From assembly GCF_003001695.1 (NCBI RefSeq), contig NZ_PVYX01000001.1, positions 1,922,001 through 1,986,000 of the forward strand: 64,000 nucleotides of DNA, written 5' to 3'. The position numbers and the translations under genes are program-made. Below the pieces are notes generated by a model. The model was given only the letters and a program-made list of their open reading frames with translations. It ran no database searches and was not told the DNA's origin. Below, one piece after another: positions 45,229 through 63,027 of the stretch (position 1 is the first letter of the stretch; each line of letters opens with the position of its first letter). The DNA comes from Flagellimonas meridianipacifica. GTDB lineage: Bacteria; Bacteroidota; Bacteroidia; Flavobacteriales; Flavobacteriaceae.

Positions 45229-47913
45229 ATGAATTTGAAACATATTTTGCTGCCAATTTGTTTGGCCTGGTCGTGTATTGCTTTCAGTCAAGGATTGACT
45301 GTTTCTGGAAAAGTAACCGATAGCCTGCAAAACCCCTTGGATGTAGCCAACGTAGTGGCCATTAATAAGAAAACGAACACTCTTGATGGTTTCGGAATAA
45401 CAACACCGGAAGGAAAATTCAAAATCAACGTAAAAAAGAATACCGAATACACCCTAAAAATTAGCTTTTTGGGTTTTGAAACCAAGGAAATCCCAATTCA
45501 AACCCAAGAGGAGGACATTTATCTGGATGTAGCCTTGTCTTCTAAACCTGAAAACTTGGATGAGGTCGAATTGATCTACGAAATACCAATTACCATACAA
45601 GGGGATACTATAGTGTACAACACGGATTCTTTCGTATCCGGTACGGAAAAAAAACTAGCCGATGTCCTCAAGAAGCTTCCAGGAATAGAGGTCAATGACG
45701 ATGGTGAAATTGAAGTGGAGGGAAAGGCAGTGACTAAAGTCATGGTAGAGGGTGATGATTTTTTTGATGGAGATTCAAAACTGGCTTCAAAAAATATTCC
45801 AGCCAATGCTCTGGATAAAGTAGAAGTTCTTCGTAATTACAACGAAGTTTCACAATTAAGCGGTCTTATGAACAATCAGGATAATATTGCCCTAAACATT
45901 AAGCTGAAAGAGGGCAAGAAAAAATTCTGGTTTGGCGAAATCACGGGTGGTCTTGGCCCGGATGAGCGATATGTGGCCCATCCTAAATTGTTCTATTACA
46001 GTCCCGAATTCAGTCTAAACGTTCTAACTGATTTGAATAATGTCGGAGAGGTTCCTTTTTCCCTTAGAGACTACTGGAATTTTACTGGGGGTGCTAGAGG
46101 TAATATCCGACCAAATACAGGTACTTTATTTAATACAAGTACATCGGGGCTTGGTTTGAGCATTACCCAAAACAATAGGGCAAGTTCCATAGACAGTAGG
46201 TTTGGTGCGGTCAATTTTAGTTATAAGCCATCAAATTCTTGGCGAGTGTCGGGGTATGGGATATTCTCCAATACGAATACCTTGTTGGAAACCATGGCTA
46301 GGCGAACCTTCATATCAACCAATGAAATTGAAAATACACAAACCGTTGCTGATCAAAGTACCAGTTTGGGTTTGGCAAAATTTACTTCCAATTATAAGCC
46401 CTCCAATAAATTACAGTGGGATTATGAGGTTCTGGTACGGACTGTTGATGATGAAGAAGATGTCTCCACACTTTCCGTAGCTGATATCAGTGATACAATT
46501 TTTGAGAATCAAGAACAAAATCCATTGACAGTAACTCAAAACTCAAATTTGTACTATACGCTGAACGATAAGAACATTTTTGCCCTAGAAACTCAATATG
46601 AATATTCTGATGAGGATCCATTCTATAATGCGATTCGTGATGTGCAGCCTTTTGTGGGAATTGTTCCCGTGGATATGCAGCAGAATAGTTTCAATATTGG
46701 GCAAAGACAATACACCCAAACCAATCGAATAGATGCAAAGCTGGATTATTTTTGGGTGTTGGGACCAAAAAGTAATCTTAACTTTACTTTTGGAACCATC
46801 CAAAGTAGTCAACGATTCAACTCTTCCATTTTTCAGGTTTTGGATTCTGGGGACCAAAACACCTTTGGGAACGAAGAGCTGGGAAATACCGTAAAATTTA
46901 GCTTTTCAGATTATTATCTGGGAGTTCATTACAAGTTGATTTCAGGTAAGTTCACCTTTAACCCGGGCTTTCATATACACGATTATACGGCAAGAAATGA
47001 GCAATTGGGTACAGAAGTGGTGGACACTATGTTCAATATTGTGCCTGATGTGTTCATAAACCTTCAACTTAAACAATCGGAAAGCCTTAGATTCACCTAT
47101 ACCATTCAACGTGAGTTTTCGGATATCAATCAATTTGCAAGAGGGTATGTGTTTACTAATTATAATGCTTTATACCAAGGTAATAGGGATTTGGAAAGTG
47201 CCCTGTTTCATACAGCGCAGCTAAACTTTTTTAGCTTCAGCATGTTCAATCAGCAGAATATTTTTGCCAATCTCGTTTATTCCAAACGAATTGATGCATT
47301 TAAAACTAATACCGGAATTGTCGGAATCAATCAGGTGAATACAACAATTAATTCAAATTTGGATGATGAAACTTTAAGCGGAACAGGAAATTATCAAAGG
47401 ACATTTGGTAGAATAAAAGTTAGTGGTCGAAGTACTTTGGCATATACCAATACCTTTAATATTGTGAATGATATGCCACAAAATTCAAGGTCATTCACTC
47501 AGGATTATGAGGCATCTTTGGGTAGTAGTTTTCGGAAAGCCCCTAATTTGGAGTTAGGATATCGATATACAGTGAATCGCTATAATACTTGTGGAATTGA
47601 GACCACATTTTTCACCGATAGACCATTTGCAAGATTGGATATAGCGTTCCTCAATGGTTTTGTTTTATTGGCGGATTACGATTATTATTTCTACAGAGAT
47701 AGAAATCAAACCATTGAAAACGAGTATGGCTTTTTAAATGCCTCCCTATCGTATCAAAAACCAGAAAGTAAATGGGAGTTTAGTATTCAGGGGACGAATT
47801 TGACCAACAATCAGGATTTGAATCAAGATACATTCAACGATTTATTTTTTAGAACTACAGAATACTCCGTTCAACCTAGATATATCCTGCTTAAGGTAAA
47901 ATATGATTTATAG
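45229..47913 (+). CDS. outer-membrane beta-barrel protein with carboxypeptidase-like and plug domains
   Basis: An 894-residue protein: signal peptide ending near AFSQ, a carboxypeptidase-regulatory-like domain at about 20-105 (GKVTDSLQNPLDVANVVAIN, 20 residues), a plug-like segment at about 120-230 (DVLKKLPGIEVNDDGEIEVE, 20 residues, and VMVEGDDFF), then a long barrel. It belongs to the outer-membrane beta-barrel family related to TonB receptors but without an obvious ligand. It is the partner of the preceding GLPGLI gene, 9 bp away. Likely regulated by the divergent two-component system. Confidence 0.9.
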   Translation: MNLKHILLPICLAWSCIAFSQGLTVSGKVTDSLQNPLDVANVVAINKKTNTLDGFGITTPEGKFKINVKKNTEYTLKISFLGFETKEIPIQTQEEDIYLDVALSSKPENLDEVELIYEIPITIQGDTIVYNTDSFVSGTEKKLADVLKKLPGIEVNDDGEIEVEGKAVTKVMVEGDDFFDGDSKLASKNIPANALDKVEVLRNYNEVSQLSGLMNNQDNIALNIKLKEGKKKFWFGEITGGLGPDERYVAHPKLFYYSPEFSLNVLTDLNNVGEVPFSLRDYWNFTGGARGNIRPNTGTLFNTSTSGLGLSITQNNRASSIDSRFGAVNFSYKPSNSWRVSGYGIFSNTNTLLETMARRTFISTNEIENTQTVADQSTSLGLAKFTSNYKPSNKLQWDYEVLVRTVDDEEDVSTLSVADISDTIFENQEQNPLTVTQNSNLYYTLNDKNIFALETQYEYSDEDPFYNAIRDVQPFVGIVPVDMQQNSFNIGQRQYTQTNRIDAKLDYFWVLGPKSNLNFTFGTIQSSQRFNSSIFQVLDSGDQNTFGNEELGNTVKFSFSDYYLGVHYKLISGKFTFNPGFHIHDYTARNEQLGTEVVDTMFNIVPDVFINLQLKQSESLRFTYTIQREFSDINQFARGYVFTNYNALYQGNRDLESALFHTAQLNFFSFSMFNQQNIFANLVYSKRIDAFKTNTGIVGINQVNTTINSNLDDETLSGTGNYQRTFGRIKVSGRSTLAYTNTFNIVNDMPQNSRSFTQDYEASLGSSFRKAPNLELGYRYTVNRYNTCGIETTFFTDRPFARLDIAFLNGFVLLADYDYYFYRDRNQTIENEYGFLNASLSYQKPESKWEFSIQGTNLTNNQDLNQDTFNDLFFRTTEYSVQPRYILLKVKYDL

Positions 47914-47938
47914 TGTACTTAGAATTTGGAATAGTTTT

Positions 47939-47969
47939 TTTGCAGGTTTTGGCTTTTACCATATTTTTG
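47939..47969 (+). promoter_or_regulatory. candidate metK promoter
   Basis: TTTG at 47939-47942 and TATTTTTG at 47962-47969 are 19 bp apart, matching the Bacteroidota -33/-7 arrangement. The predicted start (about 47975) falls just before the SAM-II-like aptamer. Confidence 0.6.
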
Positions 47970-47980
47970 CCACGCAAAAT

Positions 47981-48064
47981 GAGGAAAGATTTGACTGATT
48001 GCAACCTCGAAAAAAAATGCTAAAAAGTGAAGTGTACTTCTTCAGGGCATTCGTCAAATCTTTC
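47981..48064 (+). promoter_or_regulatory. SAM-II-like riboswitch and competing helix in the metK leader
   Basis: Stem P1 is GAGG (47981-47984) with CCTC (48005-48008). The loop between carries GATTTGAC and ATTGCAA, and the 3' tail carries TGCTAAAAAGTG (48018-48029), all matching conserved parts of the SAM-II (metA-motif) aptamer as I remember it. An ACT/AGT pairing could form the pseudoknot. In addition GAAAGATTTGAC (47984-47995), inside the aptamer, is perfectly complementary to GTCAAATCTTTC (48053-48064), 18 bases before the ATG. The two folds exclude each other, suggesting a switch that senses SAM. Assignment to SAM-II is by eye. Confidence 0.75.
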
Positions 48065-48082
48065 AAATAAAACAAATTCTGA

Positions 48083-49339
48083 ATGCCATATTTATTTACA
48101 TCCGAATCCGTAAGCGAAGGACACCCAGACAAAATCGCAGACCAAATCAGCGACTCCCTTTTAGATAATTTTTTAGCCTTTGACCCTGAAAGCAAAGTAG
48201 CCTGCGAAACACTGGTGACCACCGGACAGGTAGTACTTGCAGGGGAGGTGAAAAGCAACACCTATTTGGATGTTCAGCATATTGCCCGTGATGTAATCAA
48301 TAAGATAGGATATACAAAAGGTGAGTATCAGTTTAGCGGGGATTCATGTGGTGTAATCTCTTTGATTCATGAACAATCACAGGATATCAACCAAGGAGTT
48401 GATAGAGGCAACAAAGAAGAACAAGGTGCTGGGGACCAAGGAATGATGTTTGGTTATGCCACAAAGGAAACTGAGAACTATATGCCTTTGGCCCTAGATA
48501 TCTCACATAAGATTTTACAAGTTTTGGCGGATATGCGTAAGGATGGAAAGGAAATTTCATATTTGCGTCCGGATGCCAAGGCCCAGGTTACTATTGAGTA
48601 CTCAGACGATAACGTTCCACAAAGAATCGATACCATTGTAGTTTCTACCCAACATGACGAATTTGATTCCGATGAAAAAATGTTGGAGCAAATCAAAAAA
48701 GATATCATCGAGGTGGTTATTCCCAAGGTAAAAGCGCTTCTTCCTTCAGAAATTCAAGATTTGTTTACTGATGGCATTACCTATCACATCAATCCAACAG
48801 GAAAGTTTGTTATTGGTGGCCCTCACGGCGATGCAGGACTAACTGGGCGTAAAATTATTGTGGATACCTATGGAGGAAAGGGTGCCCATGGAGGTGGGGC
48901 TTTTAGCGGAAAAGACCCAAGTAAAGTAGACCGAAGTGCCGCCTATGCAGCGCGACACGTTGCCAAAAACTTGGTTGCCGCTGGGGTAGCCAATGAAATT
49001 TTGGTTCAAGTAAGCTATGCCATCGGAGTAGTAGAACCAACATCCCTTTTTGTGGACACCTATGGTACAGCCAATGTGGATATGAATGATGGGGAAATTG
49101 CAAAAAAGGCTTCGGAATTGTTTGATATGCGGCCATTCGCGATAGAGGAGAGGTTAAAGCTTAGAAACCCAATGTACCTGGAGACGGCTGCTTATGGTCA
49201 TATGGGAAAAACCCCGAGGACAGTTACCAAGGTTTTTGAATCCCCTTACAATGGGAAGGTAGAAAAAGAAATAGAACTTTTTACTTGGGAAAAATTGGAT
49301 ATGATTCAAGAAGTAAAAGCTGCTTTTGATTTATCCTAG
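48083..49339 (+). CDS. metK: S-adenosylmethionine synthetase
   Basis: MetK makes SAM from methionine and ATP. The 418-residue protein has [17 protein letters not shown] near residue 12, the ATP-binding [12 protein letters not shown] near residue 115, and the P-loop-like [18 protein letters not shown] near residue 270. It opens a sulfur-amino-acid cluster that extends to metH at the right edge. A structured leader with a SAM-II-like aptamer precedes it, giving product feedback. The enzyme's product is also the methyl donor for EgtD and CobA in this window. Confidence 0.97.
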
Positions 49340-51347: not shown

Positions 51348-51439
51348 AAAGGTCGATTTGTTATTTTTTCGATAAAGATTAGGATTTTAGAAAAATCTAA
51401 CTTAATCTTTGTATCACAAGTTCAAACACGTATTGAATA

Positions 51440-51587
51440 GTTATCAAGAAAGGTGGAGGGAATAGACCCTATGAAGCCTTAGCAACCCTTGTTACTTTAC
51501 AAGAAGGTGCTAAATTCTATCCTTGTCCTGAACTTGTTTCAGGATCTCAGGACGGCAACGACCGAAACTGGAATAGGAATAGATAAC
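51440..51587 (+). promoter_or_regulatory. SAM-I (S-box) riboswitch upstream of metY
   Basis: P1 is GTTATC (51440-51445) with GATAAC (51582-51587). The core shows ATCAAGAAAGGTGGAGGGA, GACCCT, GCCTTAGCAACCC and AAGGTGCTAA in S-box order. A 30-base block is identical to the metH leader at 62899. A small hairpin AATCGA/TCGATT (51591-51607) follows without a T-run, so translational control or another platform is possible. The 355-bp gap 51348-51702 consists of this leader plus an AT-rich tail; I see nothing else in it. Confidence 0.93.
51526..51544. repeat. REP-like palindrome in a peripheral loop of the SAM-I riboswitch
   Basis: TCCTGAA and TTCAGGA flank a short loop. The motif TCCTGAACTTGTTTCAGGA is, to my recollection, a very common intergenic palindrome in many bacteria. 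It lengthens a variable arm of the aptamer, compared with the metH copy, without disturbing the core. Confidence 0.6.
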
Positions 51588-51702: not shown

Positions 51703-52977
51703 ATGAGTGAACACAAATTAGCGACCAATGCATTGCATGCAGGTCATGACACAAACCATACACAGGGTACTAGGGCTGTACCTATTTACCAATCTACCTC
51801 CTACGTATTCAATGACACGGACCATGCTGCAAACTTGTTTTCGTTGGCGGAATTAGGTTTCATTTACACCCGTCTAAATAACCCTACAAATCAAGTTTTA
51901 CAAGAAAGACTTGCCGCCATTGAAGGAGGTATAGGCGCTGTGGTTTTCGCTTCTGGAACAGCAGCTATTTCCACAGGATTAATGACGCTTTTAAAAGCGG
52001 GAGACCATATTGTAGCGTCAAGCAGTTTGTATGGGGGAACATTCAACTTATTGAATGTGACATTGCCTAGATTGGGGATTACCACAACTTTTGTGGATGC
52101 TTCGGACCCGTCTAATTTTGGAAAGGCGGTGCAGGATAACACAAGGGCCTTTTTTGTGGAATCCTTGGGTAACCCAAAATTAGACGTTCTGGATTTAAAA
52201 GGAATTTCCAAGGAAGCAAAAGCGGCCCAAGTCCCTTTTATTGTGGACAATACGGTTGCGACTCCTGGCTTGTTGAATCCAATTGAACATGGAGCAAACT
52301 TGGTGATTCATTCACTGACGAAGTACATCAACGGTAATGGTACGGCCTTGGGAGGTGCTATAATAGATGCAGGTACCTTTGATTGGACCAATGGTAAATT
52401 TCCCGAGTTTACTGAGCCTTCAGCAGGATACCACGGTCTAGTATATAGTGAGGCATTGGGAGCTGCGGCATTTACATTTAAACTAATTTTAGAAGGTCTA
52501 CGTGATTTTGGAGGGGCTCTAAGCCCTACTAACGCATTTCAGATTATCCAAGGATTGGAAACTTTACCCGTCCGAATCAAACAACATAGTGAAAGTGCTT
52601 TGGCATTGGCGCAATGGTTGCAGGATAGGGAAGAAGTAGCTTGGGTAAATTATCCTGGGCTTAAAGGAAACAAGTATTACGAATTGGCCCAAGAATATTT
52701 GCCCGACGGACAAAGTGGTTTGGTGACCTTTGGCGTGAAAGGAGGCTTTGAAGCAGCCAAAAAATTGACGGATGCTACGCGAATATTCTCTTTGTTGGCC
52801 AATATTGGAGATACCAAATCCTTGATTATCCATCCAGCGAGTACAACACACCAACAGTTGACGGAAGAGGAACAAGCAAGTGCTGGAGTCACACAGGACT
52901 TGATTCGTTTGTCTGTGGGGTTGGAAAACTTAAATGACCTTAAAGCCGATTTGGAACAAGCTTTTCAGGCTATATAA
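51703..52977 (+). CDS. metY: O-acetylhomoserine aminocarboxypropyltransferase
   Basis: MetY is a PLP enzyme that replaces the acyl group of O-acetylhomoserine with sulfide, giving homocysteine directly. The 424-residue protein has YQSTSYVFND near residue 28, YTRLNNPTNQVLQERLAAIE (20 residues) near residue 55, the PLP lysine in VIHSLTKYINGNGTALGG near residue 205, and HPASTTHQQLTEEE near residue 382. It is downstream of a SAM-I riboswitch and 21 bp before the MetX-AK-HSDH fusion, so SAM levels probably set the expression of both. Confidence 0.95.
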   Translation: MSEHKLATNALHAGHDTNHTQGTRAVPIYQSTSYVFNDTDHAANLFSLAELGFIYTRLNNPTNQVLQERLAAIEGGIGAVVFASGTAAISTGLMTLLKAGDHIVASSSLYGGTFNLLNVTLPRLGITTTFVDASDPSNFGKAVQDNTRAFFVESLGNPKLDVLDLKGISKEAKAAQVPFIVDNTVATPGLLNPIEHGANLVIHSLTKYINGNGTALGGAIIDAGTFDWTNGKFPEFTEPSAGYHGLVYSEALGAAAFTFKLILEGLRDFGGALSPTNAFQIIQGLETLPVRIKQHSESALALAQWLQDREEVAWVNYPGLKGNKYYELAQEYLPDGQSGLVTFGVKGGFEAAKKLTDATRIFSLLANIGDTKSLIIHPASTTHQQLTEEEQASAGVTQDLIRLSVGLENLNDLKADLEQAFQAI

Positions 52978-52998: not shown

Positions 52999-55900
52999 AT
53001 GCTTCATCATTTGGATATAAAGAACTTTGTTACCCATTCGGGAAGTGAACAGGACATAAAGCTGTCTTATGAGGTCTTTGGCTTGCCACTGCACTCTGCT
53101 CCCATAGTACTGGTAAATCATGCGCTGACAGGAAACTCCAATGTTACTGGGGATACTGGTTGGTGGTCAGATTTGATTGGGGACGGCAAGTGTATTGATA
53201 CCCTAAAATATACGGTTCTTGCTTTCAACATTCCTGGAAATGGCTATGATGGTTTTGTGATTGAAAACTACAAGGATTTTGTTGCTGGGGATGTTGCGAA
53301 AATCTTTCTATTCGGGTTGGAACAGCTAAAAGTTGAACGCCTTTTTGCAATTATTGGGGGTTCTTTAGGAGGAGGTCTGGCTTGGGAAATGGCTACATTG
53401 AACCCCGGAATTACCGAGCATTTGATACCGGTCGCTTCAGATTGGAAGTCTACGGATTGGTTGATAGCCAATTGTCAAATCCAAGAGCAAATTCTAACAA
53501 ATTCCAAAGAGCCTGTCCATGATGCTAGAATGCATGCCATGCTTTGTTACAGAACTCCCGAATCTTTTAAAGAACGCTTCAAAAGAACGACGAACGAGGA
53601 ACTTCAGGTATTCAACGTTGAAAGCTGGTTAATGCATCACGGCAAGAAGTTGCAAGAAAGATTTCAACTATCTGCCTATAAGCTGATGAACCAATTGCTC
53701 AAAACCATTGACATCACCCGAAACGGGGAAGCTGCTTTTGAAAAACTGGAGAACAGCGATACGCAGATTCATATCATAGGGGTAAATTCAGATTTGTTTT
53801 TTACCGCGGAGGAGAACAAGGAGACTTATAGGAAATTAGCATTGGCAAACACCAATGTCACCTATGGAGAGGTTCAGTCCTTGCATGGTCACGATGCTTT
53901 TTTGATGGAGTTTCAACAATTGGAAAAACTTTTAGAGCCCGTTTTCAATCAAAACAAGAAAACAGAGCGTCCTAAAATTTTGAAATTCGGTGGCAAATCA
54001 TTGGCAAATGGAAAGGGATTGGAGCATGTTCTGGACATTGTGAAAAATAGGGCAAATGACGAGGAGAACATAGTAGTTGTGCTTTCTGCAAGAGGAAAGG
54101 CAACAGACGAACTGGAGAAAATGTTGAGGAACGCTTCAAAAGGTAAGGACTATGAAGAAGATTTCTCTGATTTTTCTAGTTATCAGCAAAATGGTTTAGG
54201 TAATATTGATATTACTGCAGAGTTTAAGGCAATCAAAAGGATTTTGGATGGTGTTTCGCTCACAGCGGATTACAGCCCCAAAACTAAAGATGAGCTTTTG
54301 TCATATGGTGAGTTGATTTCTGGAAAAGTAGTGACGGGCTTGCTTGTTTCAAAAGGGATTAATGCACAATTGTTGGATTCACGGGAACTGATAAAAACAG
54401 ATGACGCCTTTACCAATGCAAAAGTAGATCAACATCAATCTAAAGAAAATACGATTCGGGTTTTCCAAAATCTGGACCAAGATGTGTTACCGATTGTTAC
54501 GGGCTTTATCGCTTCCAATCACAATGGAGTGACCACTACCTTAGGTAGAAATGGCACCAATTATACTGCAGCTCTGTTAGCCAACTTTTTGGACGCTCAG
54601 GAACTCATAAATTATACCCATGTCGATGGAATATTTACAGCTAATCCCGATTTGGTATCAGAAGCCAAGCTTATCGATTCCATTTCATATGAAGAGGCCA
54701 ATGAGCTTGCAAATTTTGGAGCTACTATTCTCCATGCAAAGACTATCGTACCTCTAATTGAGAAAAACATTCCGCTGACTATTAAGAATACATTCAACTT
54801 GGATAGTCCAGGTACTCGGATTGAAGCGAACCCCAGTGATGAAGGTATCAAATCGCTTTCCATACAGGAGGACATGTCGTTGGTCTATTTGGAGGGTAGG
54901 GGACTACTTGGTAAAGTAGGTGTTGATGCGCGAATTTTTAAAACCTTGGGACGGAACAATATCAATGTCGGGATAATTTCGCAAGGTTCTTCCGAACGGG
55001 GAATCGGTTTGGTGGTGGATGCCTCGAAGGCTCAAAAGGCAAAAAAAGTGCTTGATGAGGAATTTGAAACAGATTATAGTTTTCAGGATATCAGCCAAAT
55101 TTCTGTAAATAAGGATGTTTCAGTCATTTCCATAATAGGAATGGATTTGGGGAACTTTCATAAACCCTTTAATGCTTTAATAAAAAATCAAATAACTCCA
55201 CTGCTTTTCAATAATACGGTTACAGGACGGAATGTGAGTTTGGTGGTGGAAAAATCCGACTTGCATAAGGCATTGAATGTAATCCATGGACAAATTTTTG
55301 GGGTATCCAAACGAATCAATTTAGCTGTTTTTGGTCATGGTAATGTGGGAGGTACATTGATAGACCAAATTTTAAACTCAGAGGAAAAAATAGAATCAAG
55401 GAAGGGAATTGATCTAAAGATTTTTGCGGTTGCCAACTCCAAAAAGGTCATATTGGATTCCAAGGGAATAGACAAGCAATGGAAAGAAAAACTAAAGCAA
55501 CACGGTGAAGCATATACCATAGAAGATATAATTGAATATGCTGAAAACAATCATTTGGAGAATTTAATTGCTGTGGACAATACGGCCAGTGAGGCTTTTG
55601 TATCCCAATACGAAAAGCTTATCGAGCATGGCTTTGATTTGGTTTCTTCCAACAAAATCGCCAACACTTTGGATTTTGATTTTTACAAATCCATCCGAAA
55701 CAACCTTGGGGAGAACAAAAAACAGTATTTGTACGAAACCAATGTAGGTGCCGGTTTACCTTTGATAGATACCATTAAATTATTGCACCTTTCTGGTGAG
55801 AATATCACCCGTATTAAAGGAGTTTTTTCAGGGTCTTTGAGTTATATTTTTAACACATTTTCCGAAGTGGATGTTCCCTTTTCTCAAGTGGTGCTTGAAG

Positions 55901-56385
55901 CAAAGGAAAAAGGGTATACCGAACCTGATCCGCGTGAAGATTTATCCGGGAACGATGTGGGTAGAAAATTATTGATACTGGCTAGGGAATTAGATCTGCA
56001 AAATGAGTTTGGAGATATAGACATCAATAACTTGATACCAAATGAATTACAAAATCTAGCCCCAGATGCATTTTTAAGTAAAGTGTCGACGATGGATGAA
56101 ACCTTTTCGAAAATAAAGGACCAACAATTGGATGGGCATGTGTTACGGTATATAGGTGACTTACATGGAGATTTACAAAAGGAGAAGGGAATTTTGGAAG
56201 CAAAATTGGTTTCGGTTCCCAAAGAAAGCGCACTAGGTCAAGTTAATGGCTCCGATTCCATAATAGAGATTTATACAGAATCGTATGGTGAGAACCCATT
56301 GGTCATTCAGGGAGCGGGAGCAGGTGCAGCAGTGACAGCAAGAGGGGTTTTTGGTGACATTTTAAGAATAGCTGAAAAAGCATAG
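52999..56385 (+). CDS. three-domain fusion: homoserine O-acyltransferase-like, aspartate kinase, homoserine dehydrogenase
   Basis: One uninterrupted 1128-residue frame. Residues 1 to about 318 are a compact MetX-type alpha/beta hydrolase: VNHALTGNSN near 39, nucleophile Ser122 in GGSLGGG, Asp265 in VNSDLFF and His298 in HGHDAFLMEF. Residues about 325-790 are an aspartate kinase (ILKFGGKSLANG near 327, with Lys where most kinases have Thr; GRNGTNYTAAL; FGATILHAKT; ACT-like regulatory region). Residues about 795-1128 are homoserine dehydrogenase (VFGHGNVGG, SNKIANT, GAGLPLIDTIK). It would catalyse the first step, the third and the homoserine acylation of methionine synthesis. The missing step, Asd, is not in the window. 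Confidence 0.9.
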   Translation: MLHHLDIKNFVTHSGSEQDIKLSYEVFGLPLHSAPIVLVNHALTGNSNVTGDTGWWSDLIGDGKCIDTLKYTVLAFNIPGNGYDGFVIENYKDFVAGDVAKIFLFGLEQLKVERLFAIIGGSLGGGLAWEMATLNPGITEHLIPVASDWKSTDWLIANCQIQEQILTNSKEPVHDARMHAMLCYRTPESFKERFKRTTNEELQVFNVESWLMHHGKKLQERFQLSAYKLMNQLLKTIDITRNGEAAFEKLENSDTQIHIIGVNSDLFFTAEENKETYRKLALANTNVTYGEVQSLHGHDAFLMEFQQLEKLLEPVFNQNKKTERPKILKFGGKSLANGKGLEHVLDIVKNRANDEENIVVVLSARGKATDELEKMLRNASKGKDYEEDFSDFSSYQQNGLGNIDITAEFKAIKRILDGVSLTADYSPKTKDELLSYGELISGKVVTGLLVSKGINAQLLDSRELIKTDDAFTNAKVDQHQSKENTIRVFQNLDQDVLPIVTGFIASNHNGVTTTLGRNGTNYTAALLANFLDAQELINYTHVDGIFTANPDLVSEAKLIDSISYEEANELANFGATILHAKTIVPLIEKNIPLTIKNTFNLDSPGTRIEANPSDEGIKSLSIQEDMSLVYLEGRGLLGKVGVDARIFKTLGRNNINVGIISQGSSERGIGLVVDASKAQKAKKVLDEEFETDYSFQDISQISVNKDVSVISIIGMDLGNFHKPFNALIKNQITPLLFNNTVTGRNVSLVVEKSDLHKALNVIHGQIFGVSKRINLAVFGHGNVGGTLIDQILNSEEKIESRKGIDLKIFAVANSKKVILDSKGIDKQWKEKLKQHGEAYTIEDIIEYAENNHLENLIAVDNTASEAFVSQYEKLIEHGFDLVSSNKIANTLDFDFYKSIRNNLGENKKQYLYETNVGAGLPLIDTIKLLHLSGENITRIKGVFSGSLSYIFNTFSEVDVPFSQVVLEAKEKGYTEPDPREDLSGNDVGRKLLILARELDLQNEFGDIDINNLIPNELQNLAPDAFLSKVSTMDETFSKIKDQQLDGHVLRYIGDLHGDLQKEKGILEAKLVSVPKESALGQVNGSDSIIEIYTESYGENPLVIQGAGAGAAVTARGVFGDILRIAEKA

Positions 56386-62820: not shown

Positions 62821-62898
62821 CGATTTTGGGGGTAATTCATTTGCTTTTGAAAACTCTGTACCTTTACTTTGCAGCTTAGTTCATGTATAAATTGAAAT

Positions 62899-63027
62899 GT
62901 TATCAAGAAAGGTGGAGGGAATAGACCCTTAGAAACCTTAGCAACCCTCGTCTTCGAGAAGGTGCTACGTTCTATTTCGCTTATGCGGAAAAAGATGACC
63001 ATAAGAAAGCACTCTTTCCATTTTTTT
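62899..63027 (+). promoter_or_regulatory. SAM-I (S-box) riboswitch with terminator upstream of metH
   Basis: P1 is GTTATC (62899-62904) with GATGAC (62994-62999, one G-U). The core repeats the motifs of the metY leader (GGTGGAGGGA, GACCCTTAGAAACC, AGCAACCC, AAGGTGCTA). After P1 a hairpin GAAAG-CACT-CTTTC (63005-63018) is followed by seven T (63021-63027), a terminator. GGAAAAAG (62987-62994) can instead pair with CTCTTTCC (63012-63019), which would break P1 and the terminator: an antiterminator. So high SAM should stop metH transcription. Gap 62769-63068 contains only the cysH-operon terminator and this leader. Confidence 0.92.

Follow-up and report, generated by a model that had tools for sequence, protein, structure and literature searches.

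The 64,000-nt stretch of the Flagellimonas meridianipacifica genome analyzed here (contig NZ_PVYX01000001.1; hereafter the window, whose own numbering is used throughout) carries a SAM-II aptamer in the leader of metK, the gene for methionine adenosyltransferase. Between the end of the aptamer match and the metK ATG (48083) lie 49 nt. The features of the leader are listed below.

47962-47969, + strand: promoter box TAnnTTTG (TATTTTTG), from the sequence and the consensus in PMC9723704
47975-48033, + strand: SAM-II aptamer (RF01726, 67.8 bits against a gathering cut-off of 44)
47981-48008, + strand: P1 stem and its loop, GAGG (47981-47984) with CCTC (48005-48008), from the Rfam alignment
47984-48007, + strand: aptamer strand facing the arm, from duplex and energy calculations
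48019-48027, + strand: aptamer tail GCTAAAAAG, the 3' strand of the P2 pseudoknot, from the sequence and the Rfam alignment
48044-48064, + strand: putative anti-aptamer arm, 20 possible pairs with 47984-48007 (-19.8 kcal/mol), from recurrence and covariation
48046-48052, + strand: putative anti-start strand GGCATTC, pairing with 48081-48087, from bound-state folds and a swap test
48081-48087, + strand: GAATGCC, holding the metK ATG (48083-48085), from bound-state folds and a swap test
48083-49339, + strand: metK, methionine adenosyltransferase, 418 aa (TIGR01034, 507 bits)

The SAM-II aptamer and the strand that faces it

The original prediction, made from the letters alone, had recognized a SAM-II-like aptamer, and the Rfam covariance model agrees: RF01726 matches 47975-48033 over the full model (E 2.8e-12). 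P1 (GAGG/CCTC), the ATTGCAA loop segment and the GCTAAAAAG tail were all found as described; P1 is seen directly, and the conserved P2 segments align to RF01726, a model without a pseudoknot. The aptamer stands upstream of a SAM/methionine gene, metK, and is predicted to bind SAM. The promoter proposed in front of it was also borne out, as TATTTTTG matches the flavobacterial sigma-A box, given as TAnnTTTG at -12 to -5 in the available text of PMC9723704, which would place the transcript start near 47974, at the first base of the aptamer. The same box occurs within 60 nt 5' of P1 in 171 of 178 leaders (a count without a chance control). A sigma-70 scan returned one site, inside the aptamer, with 0.7 expected, and the sub-threshold Rfam matches ceN110, PsrR1, eiav_FSE and SAM_alpha were set aside. 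SAM-II is present in 283 of 299 Flavobacteriaceae genomes, in 58 of 60 genomes of the window's genus, and in 44 of 295 genomes of the wider class.

The window also holds two SAM-I (S-box, RF00162) riboswitches on the + strand, at 51438-51550 and 62897-63001. The first lies 3.4 kb downstream of SAM-II, before an O-acetylhomoserine sulfhydrylase gene (51703-52977), and is followed by an ORF (52999-56385; 1128 aa) that by eye resembles a fusion of a homoserine acetyltransferase-type domain with aspartokinase and homoserine dehydrogenase. According to the available text of PMC2258182 (2007), no species had both SAM-I and SAM-II; SAM-I was detected in 234 of the 299 family genomes, and the two together in 228. 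Five family genomes (G230, G101, G097, G196 and G233) carry SAM-I and SAM-II in back-to-back orientation, one on each strand and 125-138 nt from each other, which suggests divergent promoters under two SAM riboswitch classes.

As had been predicted, GAAAGATTTGAC (47984-47995) is perfectly complementary to GTCAAATCTTTC (48053-48064) over 12 bp, and the 3' end of the latter lies 18 nt before the metK ATG. The figure of about 50 nt before the start, also given for this arm, is not right for it; 49 nt separate the end of the aptamer match from the ATG. The original prediction missed that the arm may extend to 48044, and that its 5' half may form a hairpin with the start codon. In the extended duplex the 12-bp run (47984-47995) continues with the aptamer bases 47997-47998, 48000-48002 and 48005-48007, its only interruptions being a one-base bulge, a U-U mismatch and a two-base bulge, and at 37 C the 20 pairs are worth -19.8 kcal/mol, compared with -12.7 for the 12-bp run. 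Runs of at least 12 pairs (G-U allowed) arose in 211 of 10,000 dinucleotide shuffles of the window leader, so the match is only fairly unusual and the evidence from this single leader is modest. The evidence from comparison is strong and makes the case for the arm compelling.

Recurrence and covariation of the arm in relatives

A total of 180 loci was collected; 59 belong to the genus, and the other 121 are the highest-scoring aptamers of a ranked family list, so that the sample covers the stronger matches. Of these, 177 could be parsed (L089, below the cut-off, L132 and L160 could not) and 171 precede metK; L184 was added later, making 172. The six parsed leaders that precede other genes are included in the 177-leader counts and excluded from the metK counts. 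SAM-II stands before the gene of an OAH-sulfhydrylase-like protein in L027 and L110, also with the GTCAAATC arm, and, less clearly and as read by eye, before non-metK genes in L005, L091, L105 and L106. In several long-leader genus members (e.g., L049, L054 and L058), P1 and the GCTAAA strand are separated by an additional hairpin of ~20 nt, and the spacer to the ATG is longer. For L042, L059 and L060, slightly long aptamer segments were used in the own-leader, shuffle, accessibility, 95-combination covariation and tail-codon tests.

Across the 177 leaders, the aptamer strand paired with its own leader at a mean of -18.1 kcal/mol, compared with -12.1 for shuffles. No more than 5 of 100 shuffles matched this pairing in 117 leaders, and the own aptamer beat the mean of 30 swapped aptamers in 142. 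Runs of at least nine pairs were found in 105 leaders, with 39.8 expected. The arm core CGTCAAATC was matched at 8-9 of its 9 positions in 75 of the 172 metK leaders and in none of them (0/172) when read backwards, and it ends a median of 21 nt before the ATG. On this comparison the distal arm is not peculiar to the window leader: it is common in the family and occurs in other Bacteroidota.

Both strands of the helix hardly vary at the core GTCAAATC, which by itself tells little about covariation. The variable flanks track the aptamer, with GGATAG facing TATCC, GGAAGG facing CCTTCC, and GGACAG facing GTCC. Beside the core, covariation was strong over 95 unique combinations (z -7.8, 0/2,000 permutations), a test in which 63 of 171 leaders lacked an anchor. 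With one metK leader per genus (n = 90), it reached z -8.5 (0/5,000 permutations), and the own aptamer ranked in the best tenth for 46 of the 90; within the window's genus alone it was z -2.9 (9/3,000). The related sequences are not independent of each other. In a fixed-register alignment of 45 leaders, the arm helix held in 86.1% of cells; among 500 shuffles, this percentage was reached by 26, the covariation score by 6, and the number of both-side changes by 1. RNAalifold gave partial or inconsistent folds on clade alignments, the probable cause being shifts of the arm by one or two bases, and swap and permutation tests took its place.

The class analysis used 22 of 29 loci (four family members were left out and three were unparsed). 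In several other lineages of the class, the arm has its partner in the 3' part of the loop instead, through GCAATC with GATTGC. The single-leader tests are weaker there, with no more than 10 of 200 shuffles as good in 11 of the 22 loci. The 42 leaders of the class with a GTGG-type P1 were complementary to their own aptamers (z -7.0, 0/5,000), as were the 38 left after removal of near-duplicates (z -7.4).

We consider it very improbable that the arm is kept for some other reason, such as a protein or small-RNA site, with the complementarity secondary. A nearly invariant core is what such a site would lead one to expect, and the 12-pair run taken alone is within reach of the shuffles given above; however, the variable flanks follow the aptamer in the permutation tests, and several other lineages pair through a different segment. 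The original prediction had proposed aligning the metK leaders of related flavobacteria, and in Flavobacteriaceae the arm both recurs and covaries, which argues for a real helix. Its further claim that the aptamer fold and the arm helix are mutually exclusive stands as well.

Pairing at the start codon and a proposed strand-exchange model

With the aptamer set aside, GGCATTC (48046-48052) and GAATGCC (48081-48087) pair perfectly. Of the seven anti-start bases, six also take part in the 20-pair anti-aptamer fold, so that fold and the start hairpin would exclude each other. The start context GAATGC resembles the aptamer's GATTGC, and thus one strand can serve both partners.

This pairing was examined in the leaders most like that of the window, a group picked by eye from its GCTAAAAAG tail. 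Thirteen of 71 genus genomes match the exact pattern; L050 was included as well, and L060 was taken out as identical to L059. In swap tests of the pre-arm segment against the leader's own start region, the 13 window-type leaders gave z -3.94 (0/3,000). The signal was z -3.17 genus-wide (n = 44; 4/3,000), and none was detected outside the genus (z -0.83). The arm itself gave z -3.81 against the start region outside the genus, and was worse than permuted inside it (z +2.40). Beyond the 13 window-type leaders, these tests took only leaders with at least 7 of 9 core positions, i.e., 44 unique leaders from the genus and 54 from the rest for the pre-arm segment, and 42 and 53 for the arm.

Individual leaders vary. 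L043 has a compensatory change from C-G to U-A in the start hairpin, the pairing has a bulge in L042 and another register in L184, and four of the 13 (L044, L045, L069 and L073) have only 3-5 pairs. A fixed-register alignment of 12 window-type leaders kept the start pairing in 57% of cells, and the arm and hairpin taken jointly were weak, the covariation score being reached by 37 of 500 shuffles and the both-side changes by 49. For 12 of the 13 leaders, the start region was costlier to open in the bound fold than in the apo fold, and bound-state closure exceeded the shuffled mean in 9; for the window leader, closure was unremarkable, as 11 of 40 shuffles reached it. Family-wide, 131 of 172 leaders had a start more closed in the bound fold than in the apo one, and closure was above the shuffled mean in just 84. 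We dropped a family-wide masking of the start, for which positions -12 to +6 were less accessible in 125 of 171 leaders, the AUG itself in just 88, and shuffles were not exceeded. Comparison thus points to a general arm whose probable effect on the start is supported only for the window's own group, where the start-codon pairing joins the aptamer and the recurrent, covarying arm among the elements seen across leaders.

Pairing of the aptamer tail (from about 48028) with metK codons 4-8 was rejected on weak swap tests, with z -1.03 for the window group, -1.42 for the genus, -0.51 for the remaining family members and -2.31 for the 164 unique leaders together; it reaches up to 10 bp in L044, L045, L069 and L073, and about 9 in L040. 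Other local hairpins were seen by eye in relatives, namely an inner hairpin of GCTAAA with TTTAGC in L020, and one of GACG with CGTC around the arm in L150 and L152.

Direct occlusion does not fit the window leader, given the distance between aptamer and ATG and a Shine-Dalgarno (SD) site that is not apparent by eye; SD-like sites (AGGA, GGAG or GAGG at -18 to -4) were found in 7 of 172 leaders. Nor does a terminator-type switch, as no intrinsic terminator was detected in 47900-48200, and terminator-like sites were detected in 4 of 172 leaders. Strand exchange does fit, the arm having an aptamer partner family-wide and, with the reservations above, a start-codon partner in the window's group.

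We therefore lean, with some confidence, towards a SAM-II OFF switch that controls metK translation through strand exchange; we infer its direction, its action on translation and its timing, as well as the binding of SAM. Without SAM, the arm (48044-48064) would invade the aptamer over 20 pairs with the 12-bp run at their centre, breaking P1 and the binding loop and holding the anti-start strand in the same duplex. This would leave the A-rich stretch 5' of the AUG open, and metK would be ON. SAM would trap the aptamer, probably during transcription, and the arm would thereby lose its partner; its freed 5' part, GGCAUUC, could then fold onto GAAUGCC and cover the AUG, turning metK OFF. P1 plus the start hairpin falls short of the apo fold by about 8 kcal/mol, so either SAM and P2 must pay the difference, or SAM acts before the arm is made. 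We tentatively favor the second option.

A rather unlikely alternative is that the same anti-aptamer switch acts on transcription or RNA decay, for example through Rho on the freed leader, with the start pairing incidental. It would be in keeping with proteobacterial SAM-II, mostly terminator-linked in the available texts of PMC2258182 and PMC1273637, and with a family-wide masking of the start that does not exceed shuffles. The scarcity of terminator-like sites, with none in the window's leader, and the covariation of the start-codon pairing in the window's group argue against it. Less probable still is that the arm helix and the start hairpin coexist as a pseudoknot, with the low-SAM state repressed or the hairpin constitutive. 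Taken on its own, the 12-bp helix has no base in common with the start hairpin, and the candidate geometry (12 bp and 7 bp with no base between them, and a 16-nt crossing loop) has loop lengths that look permissive on a rough estimate. However, the 20-pair fold takes six of the seven anti-start bases and is better by 7.1 kcal/mol than the 12 bp alone, and low-SAM repression of the enzyme that makes SAM would be backwards. Strand exchange onto the start codon remains our preferred reading.

Relation to known riboswitches

The aptamer itself is already known. The SAM-II long-loop group (RF01726; PMC2864571) has the same aptamer sequence and fold, occurs with metK, and has Bacteroidetes as its listed hosts; the RF01726 model ends at the aptamer, and the available account in PMC2864571 contains neither a downstream arm nor a start-codon strand. 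In the literature that is open to search, subscription papers and supplements being outside its scope, we found neither an anti-aptamer arm nor a start-codon platform described for the SAM-II of Bacteroidota. The original prediction expected a distal arm to be an unusual expression platform; the arm is common in the family and present in other Bacteroidota. Evenly balanced, in our judgment, is the wider proposal that metK SAM-II riboswitches of Bacteroidota share a so far unrecognized platform, in which a covarying, register-shifting anti-aptamer strand released by SAM would block SD-less initiation; in the window's group it would do so through pairs with the AUG itself.

SAM-II serves as a model of direct-occlusion and terminator riboswitches. 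The statement that it normally overlaps the ribosome site, also part of the original prediction, agrees with metX and with the grouping of SAM-II under "direct occlusion" in the available text of PMC10907184. It agrees less with the proteobacterial examples, which are most often linked to intrinsic terminators (PMC2258182, PMC1273637 and PMC6061858, as far as their available texts go), metX being described as a rare translational SAM-II (PMC6061858). Bacteroidetes mRNAs largely lack Shine-Dalgarno sequences, and structure near the start tunes initiation, according to the available text of PMC6847099, so the mechanics of a translational riboswitch in these bacteria are an open question. An arm able to trade the aptamer for the start codon would be a concrete, testable answer for an SD-poor phylum.

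As described in the accessible parts of the respective papers, the closest systems share parts of this scheme. Sinorhizobium meliloti metA and metZ (PMC9373788) are also SAM-II OFF switches, and metA acts on translation that starts away from the aptamer; there, the SD of metA lies in the P2 pseudoknot and SAM makes a terminator in metZ, whereas in the window leader neither SD nor terminator is evident and a separate arm would swap partners. The metX switch (PMC10907184) is likewise a SAM-II pseudoknot and a translational OFF switch, but its ribosome site is hidden inside the aptamer, while the metK start lies about 50 nt past the aptamer, where a released strand would mask it. Sequester/anti-sequester translational riboswitches (PMC10907184) likewise alternate between two folds that exclude each other, with the start site hidden in one of them. 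In that scheme the ligand frees the site, whereas in the window leader it would hide it, and the strand would cover the AUG itself, with no SD evident.
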